A DNA stretch of 38,156 bases from positions 1 to 38,156 of the forward strand of contig JAIPBM010000034.1 of assembly GCA_021739695.1 (NCBI GenBank), given 5' to 3'. Within the stretch, counting starts at the first letter, position 1. Each line of letters opens with the position of its first letter. Shown here in pieces: positions 372-8,820 of this stretch. Source of the DNA: Flavobacteriales bacterium (GTDB lineage Bacteria > Bacteroidota > Bacteroidia > UBA10329). A model generated the notes under the pieces. It searched no databases, was not told where the DNA came from, and worked only from the letters and a program-made list of their open reading frames with translations. Made by a program: the position numbers and the translations under genes.

Positions 372-505
372 GTGCTACAACAACCGCTAAATCTAATGCG
401 TGCGACTGTACGTCAGTCGGTCTCAGTTTCGTTCTGCGCTGTCTGCGCATGGCGAAAGGACGGCAGTTTCTAACGCATTATCTTTAGCGGCAAACGTTGG
501 GGTTA
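372..505. repeat. attC-like site 1 (134 nt imperfect palindrome)
   Basis: The inverse core GTGCTACAAC is at 372-381. The left arm CCGCTAAATCTAATGCG (384-400) pairs with CGCATTATCTTTAGCGG (474-490), 15 of 17 positions, with a 2-nt central mismatch. A 73-nt inner segment carries TCAGTTTCG and GCGAAAGGACGGCAG, and the core GTTGGGGTTA is at 496-505. Order and spacing match integron attC sites (R''-L''-loop-L'-R'). The expected cleavage point is between G496 and T497. The R' sequence GTTGGGG departs from the GTTRRRY consensus in its last base. The site type is inferred from architecture and from its two sister sites. Confidence 0.7.
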
Positions 506-508
506 ATT
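455..508 (+). repeat. 54-bp direct repeat, copy A (3' half of attC1)
   Basis: This stretch is identical in 53 of 54 positions to 6509-6562. The only difference is C versus G in the TAACGC/TAAGGC segment. It covers the last part of the attC inner loop, the right arm, the core GTTGGGG and six bases of the following unit (TTAATT), so identity continues a little past the predicted recombination point. Confidence 0.9.
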
Positions 509-611
509 AATGGGCATCTCGATACAGCTATAAAATTGGTCTGCTTAGTTCTGCAGGACGCTAACCATCTGAGCACATCTCCAAGAATTTGGTAGTGCAA
601 CGGTTGAGTAC

Positions 612-851
612 TTGCAAAGACATTATAATCGTGCAATGGAGAACCATCGGACTTTGGGAAACTTACACCGAAAAGACGACTTTACGTTACTTCAGATGGC
701 GCTCCAAAAACCAATGGAGAGCAATATTGCGGCAGCAAATAGCCTAGCGGTAATTCAGACCAGTGATAAAAAATCAAACATTAAAGAATTGCCGATTACA
801 ACAAACCAATATTCGGAGTATCTAATTGTTGAAGTACATTCGAATCGTTAG
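612..851 (+). CDS. small ORF of doubtful status at the start of the 6-kb unit
   Basis: A 79-codon frame opens with TTG and ends 8 nt before the LytS-type kinase. The product is hydrophilic, with no signal peptide, membrane segment or recognisable motif (it contains NIKELPITTNQYSEYLIVEV). Its position just after the attC1 core (115 nt) is where a cassette gene would lie. An in-frame ATG at codon 9 could also start a 71-residue form. The composition is weakly coding-like. It may be a remnant or chance frame. No function assigned. Confidence 0.25.
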   Translation: MQRHYNRAMENHRTLGNLHRKDDFTLLQMALQKPMESNIAAANSLAVIQTSDKKSNIKELPITTNQYSEYLIVEVHSNR

Positions 852-859
852 AATATTCA

Positions 860-1858
860 ATGAGCTTTGATCGTTACTTCAATCGTATTGGGGAAAGTGC
901 TTTCCCATTCGTTTTTGCGGCTGTAATCCCATGGCTGAGCATTCTCAATGCGGTGGCATTCCGCGATTCGTTTACTTGGGTAGATATATTGGTTCAATGG
1001 ATCTTCTCTTTCGGTTTTTTGCTACTGCTATGGTTTCTGGTAGAACGGATAGTCAGTTCAGAGAACAGAATGACGTTGCCCTTGCGGTTGGCCTTTGCAC
1101 TTATTGCCGTCATTGTTTTTGGCACCACGCTGGTCTTTGCCGTATCTGAAACCTTTCCGAGCATTGATCGGGATCAACCTCTTTGGCTTTCCACTTTTCG
1201 GCTTTCGATCGGTGGTCTGATGGTGGTAGCCATTCAAGGTGGTTTTCGGGCAATCCGCGAGAACGAAAAACTCAAAACAGAGAACTTTGCTCTGCAAACC
1301 GAAAACTACAAAGCACAGCTCGATCAGTTACGGAATCAGGTAAACCCCCATTTTCTGTTCAATTCGCTGAGCACGTTGCAGACCTTGATCCGAAAGAATG
1401 CTTCTGAAAGTGAAGAATTCGTTCATAACCTATCCGATATATACCGTCAGCTTCTGCATTCAAGGGAGTCAAGCGTCAGCACACTTGAGGAAGAACTGGA
1501 TTTTCTGAATACCTACATGAACCTTCTACGATCAAGGCACGGCAGTGCGTTGCAGGTTGATATTGATGTGGACGGATCGGTCAGGAAACTTCAGTTACCG
1601 AGTTTTGCCCTGCAGCTTCTTGTTGAGAACTGCACAAAGCATAACATCATCTCAAGGGATTCACCGTTACATATCCGGATCATTGAAGCAGGCGGGAAGA
1701 TCTCGGTTTCCAATAACCTGCAACTGAAAAAGTCGGTGGATTCCACAGGCGTAGGTTTGGAAAACCTTCGGAAAAGGTATGCGTTGATGAACATCAGCGA
1801 AGGCGTGGCTGTAATGAGCACCGATGCTGAGTTCAAGGTTGAAATCAAGCTGTTCTGA
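860..1858 (+). CDS. LytS/YehU-type sensor histidine kinase
   Basis: A 332-residue membrane kinase that should autophosphorylate and pass phosphate to the LytTR regulator encoded next. About four hydrophobic segments occupy residues 15-130 (near 15-35, 43-62, 75-96 and 112-128), followed by a short coiled coil (131-160). The His_kinase motif NPHFLFNSL places the phosphoacceptor at H164. The N-box is QLLVENCTKHN (252-262) and the G-box STGVGLENL (295-303). This arrangement is usual for Bacteroidota LytS-like kinases, which lack an identifiable ligand domain. The TGA stop overlaps the ATG of the regulator by one base (TGATG at 1856-1860), so the two are translationally coupled. Ligand unknown. 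Confidence 0.93.
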   Translation: MSFDRYFNRIGESAFPFVFAAVIPWLSILNAVAFRDSFTWVDILVQWIFSFGFLLLLWFLVERIVSSENRMTLPLRLAFALIAVIVFGTTLVFAVSETFPSIDRDQPLWLSTFRLSIGGLMVVAIQGGFRAIRENEKLKTENFALQTENYKAQLDQLRNQVNPHFLFNSLSTLQTLIRKNASESEEFVHNLSDIYRQLLHSRESSVSTLEEELDFLNTYMNLLRSRHGSALQVDIDVDGSVRKLQLPSFALQLLVENCTKHNIISRDSPLHIRIIEAGGKISVSNNLQLKKSVDSTGVGLENLRKRYALMNISEGVAVMSTDAEFKVEIKLF

Positions 1859-2595
1859 TGACCAATGTTCTTATCATAGAAGATGAACCGAGTACTGCGG
1901 AGCTGCTGAAAGAACTCATTGAGTCAAGGAGTGGGCATCGGGTTGTTGAGACGCTGGAACGGGTAGATACCGCAGTTCAGTACCTGAAGGAACACCAACA
2001 GAACCTGGATATCATCTTCTTGGATATTCACCTTGCAGATGGAGAGAGTTTTCACATTTTCAAGGAGATCGATGTTCAGACCCCGGTGATATTCTGTACC
2101 GCTTATGATGAGTACCTGCTGAAAGCATTCAAGCATAACGGAATTGATTACATCTTGAAGCCGTTCAAGCAATCTGATATTCAGGAAGCTCTAGCAAAGT
2201 TCGAAAGTCTAAAGTTGAGTTTTGCTTCTAAGAACCGACACGGTCAAGAGAACAGTTCGAGAAGATCTTTTCTGGTCCATTACCGAGAGAAAACCATTCC
2301 CATTGCCGTTGAGCAGATCGCTGTTGTGCTTATCAGCGAAGGAATCACGTATCTGTATAATCTGAACGGAGATTCGTTTCACCTCGCAAAGACCATGGAT
2401 GAGGTGCAAGAGGGCTTACCGATTGACGATTTCTACAGAGTGAACAGGCAAATGATTGTGAATCGGAACGCTGTAGCTGAAATTGAACCCTACTTCAACA
2501 GAAAAGTGATCATCAAATTGAACATCAACCTTCCAGAGCAAGTAGTTGTAAGCCGTTTGAAAGTCTCCTCATTCATGAAATGGCTGGAGCAATAG
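1858..2595 (+). CDS. LytTR-family response regulator
   Basis: A 245-residue regulator. Residues 1-120 form a receiver with acidic pocket E8/D9, phosphoacceptor D56 (FLDIHL), T81 region (FCTAYDEY) and K101 (ILKPF). Residues about 140-243 are a LytTR DNA-binding domain, recognisable from FYRVNRQMIVNRNAVAEIEP and the RKVIIKLN segment. It is the partner of the overlapping kinase gene and presumably controls transcription. The nearest candidate targets are the exported protein genes directly downstream, which start after a 120-bp gap containing a promoter-like motif; this is inference from position only. Confidence 0.94.
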   Translation: MTNVLIIEDEPSTAELLKELIESRSGHRVVETLERVDTAVQYLKEHQQNLDIIFLDIHLADGESFHIFKEIDVQTPVIFCTAYDEYLLKAFKHNGIDYILKPFKQSDIQEALAKFESLKLSFASKNRHGQENSSRRSFLVHYREKTIPIAVEQIAVVLISEGITYLYNLNGDSFHLAKTMDEVQEGLPIDDFYRVNRQMIVNRNAVAEIEPYFNRKVIIKLNINLPEQVVVSRLKVSSFMKWLEQ

Positions 2596-2691
2596 AGAAG
2601 GTTCAAGACAATTCAAACCATTCCTTGTTCAATTCAGCTGGCAATCTGTTCAGTTCACTGAATTTTCGTCCTTATCGTCTGATACACAGCA

Positions 2692-2699
2692 TAGTTTTG
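2692..2699 (+). promoter_or_regulatory. Bacteroidota -7 box (TAGTTTTG)
   Basis: An exact match to the TAnnTTTG consensus of the Bacteroidota primary sigma factor, 16 nt before the ATG at 2716. No clear TTG is present at -33, so assignment rests on the -7 box alone. Confidence 0.5.
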
Positions 2700-2715
2700 C
2701 TTCAAATCATCCAAC

Positions 2716-4428
2716 ATGAAAAAAGCATTTCTAAGCATTTTAGCGGTCATCTCATTAGTAAGCATAGGCAGATCCCAATCCTCTACCTGGAACCATGTTT
2801 ACACGACTTTACAGACCAATTGCATCGGTTGCCACGGTGGTGGCGCTCCTCAAGGTAACCTTGATCTATCAGGTTCGAGCAGCGCTGTTTACAGCGCTTT
2901 GGTAAATCAAGCACCGACCAACCCTGCTGCCTTGGCAAAAGGAAATCTGCTTGTTGACCCGGGATACCCCGAAAAAAGTTTCCTGCTTAGAAAATGTGCC
3001 AACTCAGACTGGGACAATTGGTACGAATATGACCTTGCTCCGGCCGAAGGCAACTCCATGCCGCCTTCGCCACAGCCAAGTCTGGCTCATGCTGAAATTG
3101 AAATGATCCGTCAATGGATCCTTTATGGGGCAAGTGAAACAGATAGCGTTGTGGACCCAATGCTCATTCAGAATTACTACGGGGGATTGGGCATGGCCAA
3201 ACTTCCTCCTCCGCCAGCCCCAGACCCAAGCGAGGGTATTCAGGTGCGTTTGGGGACTTTTTTCCTTCCCCCTGCCAACGAAATAGAATTTCATAAGAAA
3301 CAGAAGCTGAATCTTGACAGTGATCTGGAAGTGATCTCGCTTCATCCATTTTTCAATGACGAGTCGCATCACTTCATCCTTTATAAATTCGATGCAGCAA
3401 CAGCGGCAGAATATCCGGAGGGATTAAGGAATGTGGCCGAAGGAGAAAGTTCCATGTTCGATTCAGACATGGTTGCCGCTTGGGCCGACCCAGCCGCAAT
3501 AGACCTTCCTGCTACCACTGCTTACTCGTGGGAATCCGATGTTGTGCTGGATATGAACTATCATATTCTGAACTATGAGCAGGACTCGATCTTGGCTGCA
3601 GACGTGTACATGAATATTTACACACAGCCTACCGGTGTAGCCGAACATGAAATGATCTCACGTTTACTTCCTATCGATTGGATAGAGGCAGCTTTGAGTC
3701 AGGGCGAGAACATAGGACCCTCATTGATAATTCCAAACAATGGGCAACCGCATGTTTTCGAAGAATCGTTTTTTGGGTTCGGTCCCATCATAGACCAGAT
3801 CGGTGCAAACTGGTATTTGTGGAGGCTTGGAACCCACACGCATGCAAGAGGAAGCGACTTTGACCTGTTTCTTAGAAATCCAGATGGTACCAAAGGAGAC
3901 CAGATATATGAAGGTTTCTATAATACTGAGTACACATTCAATCAAGGATATTATGACTGGGAACATCCACCAACGCGTTACTTTGAACCGGAGCTACTTC
4001 ATATCCCAATGGCAAACGGATTCATCTTCGAAGCTGAATATGTGAATAACGGTTCTGATACATTGTATTGGGGAAACACAACTCAGGACGAGATGATGCT
4101 GATTTTCGTTCAGTACACAACGGAGCCGTTGAATCAATCAGGCACTGGAATCGGGGAAACCTACGGGTCTGCCGTATCGAAGCTGACCGCCATGCCGAAT
4201 CCGACAAATGACAATTCAACAGTTCGTTTTGAGCTGGAAGAACCAGCAGAGGTCGAACTGTTGTTAATTGACATAACCGGCCGAGTTGTTTTCCAAGAAT
4301 CTAAAGGGGAGTTAGTTGCTGGCACGCACACTCAGTTGATCGATATGAGCGGATTACAAAGTGGGATGTACATGCTGAACTTGAACGTTGGTGCGGACAG
4401 AGCTGTTGTGAGTCTGGTGAAAGAGTAA
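2716..4428 (+). CDS. secreted cytochrome c / copper type II monooxygenase-like fusion with T9SS tail
   Basis: 570 residues with a signal peptide (about 1-21). A c-type heme motif CIGCH (C36, C39, H40) is followed by a probable distal ligand in SMPP (M115). Residues 170-475 resemble peptidylglycine/dopamine hydroxylases. All six copper ligands of that family can be placed: H218-H219 and H283 for the first site (spacing 219 to 283 equals 64, as between PHM H108 and H172), then H374-T-H376 and M460 (TQDEMML, like the PHM DEM motif) for the second. Residues 490-570 are a T9SS type A sorting domain (MPNPTNDNS, ITGRVV, SGMYML). Predicted activity is a copper-dependent hydroxylation at or outside the cell surface, with the heme domain as a possible electron entry. 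Substrate unknown. It precedes the hydroxylase gene by 4 nt. Confidence 0.85.
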   Translation: MKKAFLSILAVISLVSIGRSQSSTWNHVYTTLQTNCIGCHGGGAPQGNLDLSGSSSAVYSALVNQAPTNPAALAKGNLLVDPGYPEKSFLLRKCANSDWDNWYEYDLAPAEGNSMPPSPQPSLAHAEIEMIRQWILYGASETDSVVDPMLIQNYYGGLGMAKLPPPPAPDPSEGIQVRLGTFFLPPANEIEFHKKQKLNLDSDLEVISLHPFFNDESHHFILYKFDAATAAEYPEGLRNVAEGESSMFDSDMVAAWADPAAIDLPATTAYSWESDVVLDMNYHILNYEQDSILAADVYMNIYTQPTGVAEHEMISRLLPIDWIEAALSQGENIGPSLIIPNNGQPHVFEESFFGFGPIIDQIGANWYLWRLGTHTHARGSDFDLFLRNPDGTKGDQIYEGFYNTEYTFNQGYYDWEHPPTRYFEPELLHIPMANGFIFEAEYVNNGSDTLYWGNTTQDEMMLIFVQYTTEPLNQSGTGIGETYGSAVSKLTAMPNPTNDNSTVRFELEEPAEVELLLIDITGRVVFQESKGELVAGTHTQLIDMSGLQSGMYMLNLNVGADRAVVSLVKE

Positions 4429-4432
4429 GAAG

Positions 4433-5218
4433 ATGGATTCGATAAGGTGGTATTTTCTCCTTTTTATCTTGGTCGCACTTGTGGCTGAGATCATTTGGTC
4501 ACGAATTGGTAATACCGAAACGTTCGATCTTAAAGAGAGCGCTGGCAACTTGACCGTGTTTGTTGGTAATCAATTGCTTAAACCCATTTCCTTGGCCTGG
4601 AAATATCTTGTTTTTGATTGGGTGTCGCAGTTCAGATTTTTCGACATTACTACAAATGTGATTTCCGTACTCACTGCATTTCTTGCGGTTGAATTCATCT
4701 ATTACTGGTATCATAGATTGAGTCACGAAATTCCAATATTATGGACATTGCATCACACGCATCACTCGGCCATGAAGTACAACCTCACCACAGCGGTAAG
4801 GCTGAATTGGTTAGGCCTGTTCGTCAGTCCTATGTTTTATATTCCATTGATATTCATTGGATTTTCTCCGGAAATTGTTGTTTCGGCTCTTGCGGTGGGC
4901 TTGTTCTACCAGTATTTTTTGCACACGGAGGCCATTAAGAAGTTAGGCGCTTTAGAAGGTGTCATATTTAATACGCCATCTGCGCATCGGGTACATCATG
5001 GTTCGAATGAAGCGTACATCGACAAGAATTTTGGGGCTATGTTGATCGTATTCGATAAACTATTCGGAACATACCAGCCAGAGACCGAAAAAGTGAAATA
5101 TGGAGTAACCTTTGGTTTTTTCAGTAACAATCCATTTGTGATAAACTTTCTTCCGCTTATCCAGTATTTCAAGGGGAATTGGAAAAGAGAAAAACAGCGA
5201 ATAGAAGAAGGGCTTTAA
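4433..5218 (+). CDS. sterol desaturase / fatty acid hydroxylase superfamily protein
   Basis: 261-residue integral membrane di-iron oxygenase. Hydrophobic segments lie near residues 6-24, 75-100 and 125-155. The conserved histidine clusters are HRLSH, LHHTHHS and AHRVHH, plus a later NFGAMLIVFDKLFGTYQPE segment typical of the family. Members hydroxylate or desaturate lipids such as sterols, fatty acids and carotenoids in the membrane. The start codon is 4 nt after the stop of the copper monooxygenase gene, so both are probably on one transcript, which puts two oxygenases together. The exact lipid substrate cannot be told from sequence. Confidence 0.92.
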   Translation: MDSIRWYFLLFILVALVAEIIWSRIGNTETFDLKESAGNLTVFVGNQLLKPISLAWKYLVFDWVSQFRFFDITTNVISVLTAFLAVEFIYYWYHRLSHEIPILWTLHHTHHSAMKYNLTTAVRLNWLGLFVSPMFYIPLIFIGFSPEIVVSALAVGLFYQYFLHTEAIKKLGALEGVIFNTPSAHRVHHGSNEAYIDKNFGAMLIVFDKLFGTYQPETEKVKYGVTFGFFSNNPFVINFLPLIQYFKGNWKREKQRIEEGL

Positions 5219-5260
5219 AAAATCCCCCTTTGATTCGTATTGGCTTAGAATGAAAACCGT

Positions 5261-6325
5261 ATGAAGCGCATAATCTTAATGACAGTAATCGCCAGCATAT
5301 CACTGCACTGTGGCGTCAGATCACAAGACAGTACGGCCATTGTCTCGGCTTTTTTCGGTCTTGATAATGCATTGCCCATACTTGCAAATGCCTTGTGTCT
5401 TGGAGCAAACGGAATGGACGGTATGCCCGTGAATTTCAATTACCCTATAGATGGATCCAGCTTATCGGCATCTGATTTCGAAGTTGTTGACGGCCTTGGA
5501 AACAGCTACGCTCCCATGTGCGCTGTATTAGCACCAGCCAATGAAAACGGAGAAAACCGAACGGTGCTCCTGATTGGGCAGTTTGGAAATGCTGGTACCA
5601 ATCCACCAGTGCGGATCAACGTTATTGATGACCTGTTCACCACCAACACCTTGGTTGAAGAATCTTCTTGTTCTGAAATCATCAATTTGAATGGCGCCTA
5701 TACCACTAACGTTGTTCCTTTGAGCGAAGGGCCATCCTTGTTTTTCGCTCAGAAAATTGATGGTGGTATCAATGACTGTGACCTGGGTAACCAGACAATA
5801 CAAGTGGCTTGGGATGGAGGTATTACCCCTTTCATCAATGGCGTTGCTGAGGATGACCTGTTTCAATTCTACACAGGTTATTCAGATAGTTCAGGAGTGC
5901 TTATTGCTCACCAACCGATTGCGATAGCAGATATAAATGATAACGACAACTTCCATCAACTGTGCTTTTCTACCAATGAGGAGATTGTAAGAATTTCAAT
6001 TATCGCAAACACTGTTGAAGACCCGAATGGAGATCCAAATTCGGGTAGCGAGATTGACGTAAGCTATTGTTCTGCGAGTTTAAGTGCAGAAGAAATTCCA
6101 CAAGAACCAACATATAACGTTTATCCAAATCCATTCTCAGCTGAGCTGTTTGTTGAGAACTTAAGAGGAGATGAGTACTTCAAGCTTTATGATCTTACCG
6201 GACAGGTAATATTTGAAGGAGGGAACTTCGAATTATTTGACATTTCGAATATCACAAGTGGGCTTTATTTTTTCACTATCCGATCGCGTTCGTATCTGGA
6301 GAGTAAGAAAGTAGTTAAGAAATAA
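5261..6325 (+). CDS. T9SS-exported protein of unknown function
   Basis: 354 residues with a signal peptide (about 1-21, ending VRSQ) and a C-terminal T9SS type A sorting domain (YNVYPNPFSAELFVENL, LYDLTGQVIFEG, ITSGLYFFTI, final KKVVKK). The middle is rich in D, N, G and hydrophobic strands, consistent with beta-sandwich folds, and contains several cysteines (for example SSCSEI, NDCDLG, YCSAS) that could form disulfides outside the cell. No catalytic motif recognised. It lies 42 nt after the membrane hydroxylase on the same strand and ends at the edge of a disturbed attC-like site. Surface or extracellular location is inferred from the sorting tail. Confidence 0.88.
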   Translation: MKRIILMTVIASISLHCGVRSQDSTAIVSAFFGLDNALPILANALCLGANGMDGMPVNFNYPIDGSSLSASDFEVVDGLGNSYAPMCAVLAPANENGENRTVLLIGQFGNAGTNPPVRINVIDDLFTTNTLVEESSCSEIINLNGAYTTNVVPLSEGPSLFFAQKIDGGINDCDLGNQTIQVAWDGGITPFINGVAEDDLFQFYTGYSDSSGVLIAHQPIAIADINDNDNFHQLCFSTNEEIVRISIIANTVEDPNGDPNSGSEIDVSYCSASLSAEEIPQEPTYNVYPNPFSAELFVENLRGDEYFKLYDLTGQVIFEGGNFELFDISNITSGLYFFTIRSRSYLESKKVVKK

Positions 6326-6559
6326 TGAATACAACACCCACCGAATCCAATGCTCGGAACAGTGTGTCAGTCCGGAAAACACAGGATAGATCGGTCTAAG
6401 TTTCTCTTCGACACTTCGACCTGCTCAGCGCAGGCAAGCTGAGAATAGACTCGCTAAGTTGTCTGCACACGGCTACCCGACCGAAGGGAACACACCGGCA
6501 ACGAAGGTAAAGGACGGCAGTTTCTAAGGCATTATCTTTAGCGGCAAACGTTGGGGTTA
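6326..6559. repeat. attC-like site 2, enlarged and degenerate
   Basis: Right half 6509-6559 is nearly identical to attC-like site 1, with right arm GCATTATCTTTAGCGG and core GTTGGGGTTA (6550-6559). The left half is recognisable but decayed: ACAAC at 6331-6335, then CCGAATCCAATGC (6341-6353), and GTCAGTC and CGGTCTAAGTTTC shared with site 1. Taken from the expected inverse core, the element is 234 nt, 100 nt longer than the other three. The extra sequence includes a segment around 6405-6450 (CTTCGACACTTCGACCTGC and CAGCGCAGGCAAGCTGAG) like the short inverted repeats scattered in Bacteroidota genomes. The inverse core does not match the start of the unit it closes. Confidence 0.55.
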
Positions 6560-6562
6560 ATT
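6509..6562 (+). repeat. 54-bp direct repeat, copy B
   Basis: Second copy of the 455-508 repeat, one mismatch. The two copies bracket about 6 kb containing the LytS/LytTR pair, two oxygenases and an exported protein. Confidence 0.9.
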
Positions 6563-6575
6563 TTATAGTCGGACA

Positions 6576-7139
6576 ATGTTCTCGATTGCTTTAGGCCTTG
6601 TTTTCATTACTACAGTCTCAATTGCACTTGTAGCATTTGCTCTTGCCTTCTTATTTAGGAAGCACCGTTTTGTCAAAATAAGTCTGTCAGTCTTGGGTTG
6701 TTCTTCAATTGCTGTGAGTCTGTTGATTGTCTGTTTTGTCTTGACCAACGGCAATTCGCAACCTGTTAAAGTCGATTTCTCAGGTGTTTATCACAGAATC
6801 AGTGGAATACCAGGAGAAAGAGGGAAGTTGATTGTTCATCCTGACAGCACGTTTGAAGTCATTGACGATCTTTATTTATTCCGTGGAGGGTCGTGCGCGA
6901 GATTCTCCCCGTACCTGCCTGAATTAGGAGCGAGGATTTATATGAATCCTGATTCAGGAAAACATAATGGCGGAAGTTTTCATGTTACATATGACAGTTT
7001 TGACACCATTTATGTATTCCAATTGCCTGATTCCTATTTGGCAAAGGATTATGCGCTGAAAAATCCCCATACGTATCCTTTGAATTCATTTAGTTATGAG
7101 AAAGTGCCAAGTGATAACCGGATAAAAAGAAAAAACTAA
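6576..7139 (+). CDS. small membrane protein, cassette cargo
   Basis: 187 residues. Two hydrophobic helices at the N-terminus (about 2-26 and 34-56) are joined by a short basic loop (RKHRFVK). A non-cytoplasmic domain of about 125 residues follows, which begins VDFSGVYHRISG and contains IVHPDSTFEVIDD. No known family recognised. The start is 25 nt after the predicted recombination point, and the stop (TAA 7137-7139) overlaps the inverse core of the next attC-like site. This tight packing is typical of one-gene cassettes. It is the only gene in its unit. Confidence 0.75.
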   Translation: MFSIALGLVFITTVSIALVAFALAFLFRKHRFVKISLSVLGCSSIAVSLLIVCFVLTNGNSQPVKVDFSGVYHRISGIPGERGKLIVHPDSTFEVIDDLYLFRGGSCARFSPYLPELGARIYMNPDSGKHNGGSFHVTYDSFDTIYVFQLPDSYLAKDYALKNPHTYPLNSFSYEKVPSDNRIKRKN

Positions 7140-7270
7140 CCCCAACAACTACTATAAAAATAGGGCGTGACGACAGGTACGCAAGCTCAGCTGTTTCTAC
7201 CAAGTTCAGTTTCGGGCGAAAGGACGCAGGTATTAAAGCCCTATTTTCATAGTTGTAACCGTTGTAGGTA
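7137..7270. repeat. attC-like site 3 (134 nt)
   Basis: Inverse core TAACCCCAAC (7137-7146). The left arm ACAACTACTATAAAAATAGGGC pairs with GCCCTATTTTCATAGTTGT (7238-7256), the left arm carrying three extra bulged bases. The inner segment is 71 nt and shares TCAGTTTCG and GCGAAAGGACG with site 1. Core GTTGTAGGTA is at 7261-7270. The inverse core is the exact reverse complement of GTTGGGGTTA at 6550-6559, the start of the unit this site closes. Predicted cleavage lies between G7261 and T7262. Confidence 0.75.
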
Positions 7271-7272
7271 AT

Positions 7273-8145
7273 ATGAAAAACGACATACCACATGTAACAT
7301 TTAAACCTGCGACTTCTGAAAACTTTGGATTTGAAATTGTTCCAATTGAGGCAATTGCCAACAAGAAAGGTGCACATGAGCACAACTCTCAATTACCGCA
7401 TCAACTCAAGTTTTACAATTTGATTTTTTTCACCGAAGGCAAAGGCAGACATTTTATAGATTTCCACTGGTATCCTGTACAGCAAAACACTCTTGTTTAT
7501 ATTGCCAAAGAACAAGTAAATGCATTTGAATTTTCTGCAGGTTTAAAAGGATACTGCATGGTTTTTACCGAAGATTTTTTTGTGAATTGCTTTTCAAATT
7601 TTACCGACAATTTTTTGTTTCGGTTATTCAATCCACAACTATTCTCGCCCATTGTTCCAATTCCAGAAGAGTCAGATTTTATCAATTATTTTAATCTCTT
7701 ACGCAAAGAATTCAGCGCTCCAAAATCGGTGAATCAAAAGGAGATAATTAAATCGCTGCTTACCATTCTCGTATCCAAGGTGGAGAACATCAAGCAAAAC
7801 CAGCCTGAGTTTTTCATCGATTCGTCAAAGCTTATTCTATTTCAAAAATTCACCTCGCTGGTAGAAAATCATTATACCGAAAGCAGAAACGCTAATTTTT
7901 ATGCAGATAAATTGGCCATCACCTATAAACACTTGAATATTACTTGTAAAGAATTGATGCACAAAACTGCTAAAAGTGTGATTGATGACTTTATAGTGCT
8001 TCAAGCCAAACGAAAATTGATAAACGCTGATATGAAGAGTACCGAATTGGCGTATGATTTAGGTTTTGAAGACCCTACCAACTTTACAAAATATTTCAAG
8101 AAGCAAATAGGATTAACCCCAATATCATTCATAAAATCGATTTAA
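7273..8145 (+). CDS. AraC-family transcriptional regulator
   Basis: 290 residues. An N-terminal cupin-like sensing region (about 30-130, FTEGKGRHFIDFHWYPV and VYIAKEQVNAFEF) is followed by a C-terminal double helix-turn-helix (about 190-290) with FYADKLAITYKHLN and the signature LAYDLGFEDPTNFTKYFKKQ-IG-TP. The ATG is 11 nt after the predicted cassette recombination point, so it has almost no leader of its own and may be read from upstream. The coding sequence is visibly richer in A and T than the chromosomal genes to the right, which suggests transfer. It likely regulates the SnoaL-like gene that follows in the same cassette. Confidence 0.92.
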   Translation: MKNDIPHVTFKPATSENFGFEIVPIEAIANKKGAHEHNSQLPHQLKFYNLIFFTEGKGRHFIDFHWYPVQQNTLVYIAKEQVNAFEFSAGLKGYCMVFTEDFFVNCFSNFTDNFLFRLFNPQLFSPIVPIPEESDFINYFNLLRKEFSAPKSVNQKEIIKSLLTILVSKVENIKQNQPEFFIDSSKLILFQKFTSLVENHYTESRNANFYADKLAITYKHLNITCKELMHKTAKSVIDDFIVLQAKRKLINADMKSTELAYDLGFEDPTNFTKYFKKQIGLTPISFIKSI

Positions 8146-8214
8146 TAGCGTTGTTGGTTCGAGATTAACCATTTTTACTCCACTTTTCATCGTTACAACG
8201 ATTTATGGCAACTG

Positions 8215-8222
8215 CATCTTTG
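8215..8222 (+). promoter_or_regulatory. possible -7 box (CATCTTTG) upstream of the SnoaL-like gene
   Basis: Resembles TAnnTTTG with one mismatch and lies 25 nt before the ATG at 8247, inside the 101-bp gap between the AraC gene and its neighbour. No clear -33 element. A plausible AraC target promoter. Confidence 0.35.
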
Positions 8223-8246
8223 TAGCATCAAACTAGACAAAGAAAA

Positions 8247-8666
8247 ATGGAAAATTTAAAAGAAATCGTTTTGCCGTTTTACCAAAAGGCTTTAACCGTA
8301 AACGCTGAAACGAACCCTGCTGATGTATTGAATGCAATCTTAGCACCTGATTTTATATCGGAAGGAACTGTGGATAACAAGAACAAGGAACAACTGATTG
8401 GTCAGTTAGGTTTTTTCTGGAAAATGATTCCTGATTTGAAATGGGAGCCTACAGAAATCATTGAAAGTGGTAACCAAGTTATTGTAAGAAGCAAAGTGAC
8501 AGGAACACCAAACTCACCTGAAGGACAATTTTTTGGTTTACCAACAAATGGGACTAAATCTTTTGCGACTATGTCTATTGATATCCACACCATTGAAGAC
8601 TCGAAAATTGTTAAAGTTAACCACATAGAGGATTGGGCTACAGCACTGAAACAATTAAAAAATTAG
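8247..8666 (+). CDS. SnoaL-like / NTF2-fold protein
   Basis: 139 residues, no signal peptide. The pattern is that of ester-cyclase/SnoaL-like NTF2-fold proteins: an opening helix (VLPFYQKALTVN), APDFISEGTVDNK, the GFFWKMIPDLKWEPTEII segment, VRSKVTGT, GLPTNGTKSFATMSIDIHTI, and a final DWATALKQL. These proteins bind or transform small hydrophobic molecules, but many have no known activity. In Bacteroidota, such genes often sit beside AraC regulators, as here. It is the second gene of its cassette and is followed directly by an attC-like site containing a terminator. Confidence 0.85.
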   Translation: MENLKEIVLPFYQKALTVNAETNPADVLNAILAPDFISEGTVDNKNKEQLIGQLGFFWKMIPDLKWEPTEIIESGNQVIVRSKVTGTPNSPEGQFFGLPTNGTKSFATMSIDIHTIEDSKIVKVNHIEDWATALKQLKN

Positions 8667-8686
8667 CATTAGTGATGTAGAAATAC

Positions 8687-8820
8687 TACCTACAACAAGT
8701 ATAAAAGCAATAGCGGTTTGGGAGTAATCTCAAGCCGTTTTTTTGTATTTAAGTATCTTGCTTTCCGAAAAGTAACTGCATTTAAATCCGCTACTGCTCT
8801 TATACTAAACGTAGCACATT
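8687..8820. repeat. attC-like site 4 (134 nt)
   Basis: Inverse core TACCTACAAC (8687-8696) is the exact reverse complement of GTTGTAGGTA at 7261-7270, the start of the unit it closes. Left arm AAGTATAAAAGCAATAGCGG (8697-8716) pairs with CCGCTACTGCTCTTATACT (8788-8806), with two single mismatches. The inner segment is 71 nt and unlike that of sites 1-3. The right core is GTAGCACATT (8811-8820), apparently lacking the TT of the expected GTTGTAGCAC. Predicted cleavage after G8811. Confidence 0.72.
8714..8744 (+). terminator. intrinsic terminator inside attC-like site 4
   Basis: Stem CGGTTTGGGA (8714-8723) pairs with TCTCAAGCCG (8728-8737), allowing two G-T pairs, over a GTAA loop. It is followed by seven T (8738-8744). 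It would end transcripts of the AraC/SnoaL cassette. Confidence 0.75.

Follow-up and report, generated by a model that had tools for sequence, protein, structure and literature searches.

Attachment-site hairpins, matched-core gene cassettes and a linked tyrosine recombinase in Bacteroidia: a probable variant integron seen through a fragmented array

The window, by which we mean the whole 38,156-nt stretch analysed, is contig C34 of a 4.24-Mb, 53-contig draft Bacteroidia genome (G000), whose class we infer from named organisms with related recombinases. The window carries attC-like sites, two intact cassettes and their genes, all on the forward strand:

371-505, + strand: attC-like site 1, with inverse core GTGCTACAAC at 372 and core GTTGGGGTTA from 496; covariance model 120.7 bits
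6328-6560 (approximate), + strand: damaged attC-like site 2, with a right half near-identical to site 1, an enlarged middle and an unmatched inverse core
6551-7261, + strand: intact cassette of 711 nt, with first bases TTGGGGTTA following G6550 and last base G7261; 10-nt core/inverse-core match
6576-7139, + strand: cassette ORF of 187 aa, without a Pfam family
7136-7270, + strand: attC-like site 3; covariance model 140.3 bits
7262-8811, + strand: intact two-gene cassette of 1550 nt; 10-nt core/inverse-core match
7273-8145, + strand: cassette ORF, AraC-family regulator (HTH_18)
8247-8666, + strand: cassette ORF, SnoaL-like protein
8686-8820, + strand: attC-like site 4, with a damaged core (GTAGCAC, TTG missing); covariance model 70.5 bits
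8825-9253, + strand: DUF4288 gene, 3′ of the damaged core of site 4

From inverse core to core, sites 1, 3 and 4 are each 135 nt long, and the covariance model recovers them in one register; all three belonged to its training set. The original prediction had described four sites of one architecture, three of them spanning exactly 134 nt. The common architecture and the constant length were borne out for sites 1, 3 and 4, at 135 nt, but not for site 2, which shares 98% identity with site 1 over its right 54 nt and is ~95 nt longer in the middle. Site 2 was missed by the covariance model and folds no better than shuffles, whereas site 1 folds with a z of about -5 relative to shuffles and sites 3 and 4 have a mild advantage only.

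Each intact unit opens with 10 bases whose reverse complement is the inverse core at its own end (GTTGGGGTTA/TAACCCCAAC and GTTGTAGGTA/TACCTACAAC), exactly as predicted. By these matches 6551-7261 and 7262-8811 are intact cassettes, and they would be excisable. That the sites delimit cassettes is true of two of the three window units; the third, 497-6550, was ruled out as a cassette, with a core that matches the inverse core of site 2 over 4 nt and a block of ordinary genes inside. The core of site 4, GTAGCACATTT, equals GTTGTAGCACATTT minus TTG, and GTTGTAGCACATTT is found elsewhere in the genome (L050, L056); the DUF4288 gene next to it is probably the remnant of one more cassette. Between sites 1 and 2 (860-6325) lie genes for a histidine kinase, a LytTR regulator, a fatty acid hydroxylase and two sorting-tail proteins, which are not cassette-like. 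The repeat at 1-133 (TCCTAAGCTTGCACTCG...) recurs at the ends of contigs C42 (L290) and C22 (L292) and probably represents one end of an insertion element; its C22 copy breaks into an attC-like arm. An Rfam search of the window gave nothing relevant.

We searched the rest of the genome with a short pattern, then with an arm scan and then with a covariance model built from 30 sites, for which a hand-set structure was adopted because the automatic consensus structure gave just 11 pairs. At E<1e-12 the model reported 48 sites, 30 of them its training sites. Besides the window, arrays of such sites lie on C23, C16, C9, C17, C42 and C43; they are broken, as the array contigs of this draft end at repeats. 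The long paired arms that had been predicted covary strongly: among the 30 own sites, double-change cells numbered 88, compared with 34 after shuffling and 6-18 after sliding. Single scattered sites are also present (e.g., on C3, C4 and C22), and one site, L055:84-220, has two arms of different types and may have arisen by recombination between two sites or by chimeric assembly.

Along the arrays, cassettes stand in tandem with attC-like hairpins between them, which is the arrangement of integrons. The leading core is the reverse complement of the unit's own inverse core over 8 nt or more, typically 10 nt, in 27 of 30 consecutive units. The mean match length, computed from the inverse-core positions given by the covariance model coordinates, was 9.37 in these 30 units, while the shuffled mean was 5.12 and the maximum of 10,000 shuffles was 6.33. 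Most units are ~0.5-2 kb long and contain a single ORF, and the longest ORF has the orientation of the array in 28/29. The units carry a variety of accessory genes (C5 methyltransferase, HNH, TonB-like, NIF phosphatase, exonuclease and many unknown); a PADLOC scan of three cassette proteins matched only the C5 methyltransferase and, weakly, an HNH-type protein.

The cores begin with GTTR in 110 of 115 sites and fit the classic integron consensus GTTRRRY in just seven, so their departure from that consensus, seen at first in the window, is general. In an ungapped scan the arms, ~17 bp long, appear to be interrupted mostly by same-length mismatches, with the G usually on the bottom strand (G/T, G/G, G/A), and show no clear sign of the bulged extra bases that had been proposed. 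When the arms only were folded, the bottom strand did better in 94 of 106 sites (61/70 and 33/36).

The best IntI-like protein of the genome is a 426-aa tyrosine recombinase at the end of contig C45 (18894-20174). Its stop codon TAG overlaps a core, GTTGTGGTTA, in the context CCCC TAG TTGTGGTTA. The 138-139 nt that start at this core are found also after an attC at the start of C9, and C16 joins C45, with the recombinase, and C9, with the attC, through the same 139-nt overlap, and the two paths part at precisely the core G. That one crossover base has two junctions means that the cassette is present in duplicate or that the population is mixed, and site-specific recombination at this base is compatible with either. 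Since the array contigs break at repeats, the link between recombinase and array in this genome is made through contig overlaps only.

The link recurs in relatives. Among 99 genomes of the class, 52 carry attC-like sites and 50 carry the recombinase family, and the two co-occur beyond expectation (p=0.0017); some site-rich genomes, such as G008 with 25 sites, gave no recombinase match at the threshold used. A core/inverse-core match of 8 nt or more, assessed against shuffles, was found in 30/44 units of relatives. At 40 recombinase loci of relatives nearly all site matches lie downstream on the same strand, and at 80 named loci this was true of 35/36 matches (binomial 2e-20). Named isolates with such loci include Algibacter onchidii, Seonamhaeicola aphaedonensis, Winogradskyella ursingii, Zunongwangia mangrovi and Flavobacterium aciduliphilum, and the non-Bacteroidota loci among the 80, which serve as an internal control, gave one marginal match. 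The core predicted from the first attC was present within 500 nt after the recombinase stop codon in 18 of 26 loci, compared with 9 of 650 mismatched controls, though two of the 18 (L158 at 489 nt and L189 at 389 nt) may mark an attC missed by the model. At these loci, as at C45, a site that carries the first cassette's core adjoins the recombinase, in the manner of attI in integrons. A motif near GGGTATANACNA often precedes the first core after the stop codon. In Rufibacter (L202:10001-10963 and following) the first core overlaps the recombinase stop codon too, as it does in our genome.

The search for an IntI-type recombinase that the original prediction called for had a divided outcome: a linked tyrosine recombinase was found, but canonical IntI was absent from the 99 class relatives (no TIGR02249 match at 1e-45). 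Phylum-wide, the same model placed canonical IntI above its cut-off in 84 of 296 genomes, and one of the 86 matching genomes belongs to the class. The C45 protein scores 209.1 bits with TIGR02249, below the cut-off of 265. All recombinases of this family that we compared are without the ~42-residue IntI insert near patch III that bears the I2 helix: the spacing from KDR to HxxRH is 57-62 residues in 26 of 27 proteins (one outlier was read as 3), compared with 100 in all 11 canonical IntI proteins. The Vibrio integron integrase (PDB 2A3V, listed as IntI4) aligns over its core-binding and catalytic domains at 217.9 bits, in two pieces (6-181 and 240-320), with 58 residues of 2A3V corresponding to 15 here. 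In a quick tree the IntI-type rows form a clade (support 99) that holds no Bacteroidia rows, the deeper branches being weak; a smaller tree left the branching order open.

XerA-type models match the recombinase about as well as IntI does. In both sequence and fold, the catalytic part is matched best by XerA and archaeal Xer-like recombinases (NF040815; PDB 5hxy, 4a8e), but the C45 protein falls below the NF040815 cut-off (209 vs 220) and differs from XerA-type proteins in an extra N-terminal domain, an IntI-like SPLD/SPFD tail and its location at cassette arrays. The prediction of the extra domain, ~75 residues long, is a confident one. HARP is a domain that reads DNA structure, and Pfam HARP matched 3 of 20 members (best 5e-4), while DUF5710 matched 8 of 20 (best 2e-5) and PDB 4o66 was reached at E=0.06. 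A fold search with the domain placed an eIF1-like protein (YciH) at the top and did not list HARP; a HARP identity is a lead from weak sequence hints.

Chromosomal integrons, with intI, attI and attC arrays, resemble this system in the array of hairpin sites, the mostly one-gene cassettes on one strand, the G|TT crossover, the core that matches its own inverse core and an attI that adjoins a tyrosine recombinase. They differ in having a recombinase with the I2-bearing insert, inside the IntI clade, and GTTRRRY cores with 7 nt of complementarity, whereas here GTTR is followed by variable bases, complementarity extends over 9-10 nt and site length is nearly constant (~135-139 nt). In Treponema integrons intI is transcribed toward attI (PMC3607928), and there too recombinase and cassettes read in one direction and attI lies at the 3′ end of the recombinase gene; those integrons encode an intI of the known kind, unlike the different family with an added N-terminal domain described here.

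Array anatomy, matched cores, attI linkage and one-strand polarity, all of them read directly from the sequence together with the assembly branch at the crossover base, make an integron-like cassette system very likely, and with good confidence we take the window to be a piece of a fragmented array of chromosomal cassettes, belonging to a variant integron that extends across Bacteroidia. The proposal of a lineage-specific, previously undescribed cassette class gains support from the arrays, the attI-like sites, the one-strand cassettes and the linked recombinase. We strongly infer that this recombinase is the catalyst. As we picture it, a tyrosine recombinase of ~370-430 aa would be transcribed in the direction of an attI-like site that coincides with its stop codon or lies just 3′ of it, and circular cassettes, normally one gene with a ~135-nt attC-like hairpin, would be inserted at G|TTR. 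Later recombination of attC with attC would excise or reshuffle them, and in the circle the leading 10 nt of the cassette would pair with the inverse core and restore the R box. Like IntI in its integrons, the recombinase would work on the bottom strand of attC in its folded form, and could plausibly act on such single-stranded hairpins despite the missing I2 insert.

Several other explanations share part of this evidence. The same cassette logic and G|TT crossover, and the frequency of canonical IntI in other classes of the phylum, would suit ordinary integron cassettes (CALIN) that a canonical IntI, itself absent from the assembly, has left behind or serves. This is very improbable, as site arrays are common in the class relatives although canonical IntI is not found there, the arrays begin at an I2-less recombinase with a matching first core, and few cores fit GTTRRRY. 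We give almost no credence to REP- or MITE-type palindromes scattered between genes without cassette turnover. Lone sites such as those on C3, C4 and C22 have that appearance, but neither dispersed palindromes nor a REP family that brings its own transposase accounts for the arrays, because the cores of consecutive sites are matched unit by unit and a tyrosine recombinase stands at the head of the arrays; the fixed orientation of the sites with the genes and their strict polarity relative to the recombinase also speak against it.

The remaining alternatives concern the enzyme. Dif-like sites are ~28 nt long. XerC/D-like proteins are encoded in the genome, and host XerC/XerD could in principle move the cassettes as in dif modules; with ~135-nt hairpins as sites, and array starts that adjoin loci of the linked recombinase family, at which the first core is found, this is extremely improbable. 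The arrays might instead be integron-like while the linked recombinase works on double-stranded cores by Xer-type strand exchange, with no single-strand hairpin. The comparable matches to XerA-type models, the missing I2 and a core complementarity that exceeds the 7-bp R box agree with such a mode, which we regard as unlikely, since double-stranded sites offer no easy explanation for long, covarying arms of ~17 bp and the bias toward bottom-strand folding.

IntI is reported to require the I2 helix in order to capture cassettes; in the accepted account the acquisition of this helix gave integron integrases single-strand recombination, and it is present in no other protein (PMC7790495). The use of hairpins without I2 is for this reason the most interesting point of the reading we favour, that of a variant integron. 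We tentatively suggest, as a possibility somewhat short of even, that it represents a separate integron lineage in which recombination at hairpin sites either originated or was retained without I2, the N-terminal domain recognising the folded attC and paired G mismatches replacing extrahelical bases. If so, single-strand cassette capture would have evolved more than once or would predate I2. The IntegronFinder 2.0 survey listed for Bacteroidetes only In0 elements and one integron, of Salinibacter ruber (PMC9024848). An I2-less system in a large class with almost no surveyed integrons makes the origin of integrons directly testable and would bring to light a large pool of mobile genes that has gone unseen. 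In the open-access literature, preprints excluded, we found no report of attC sites in Bacteroidota or Flavobacteriia or of I2-less integrons, and an earlier description elsewhere is possible.

The genome also holds a second XerA-like recombinase, a 206-aa open frame at the end of C38 (L035), and the remnant of one at the start of C19 (L036). Both adjoin a shared repeat around GGTTGGCCGCGGCCAACC.
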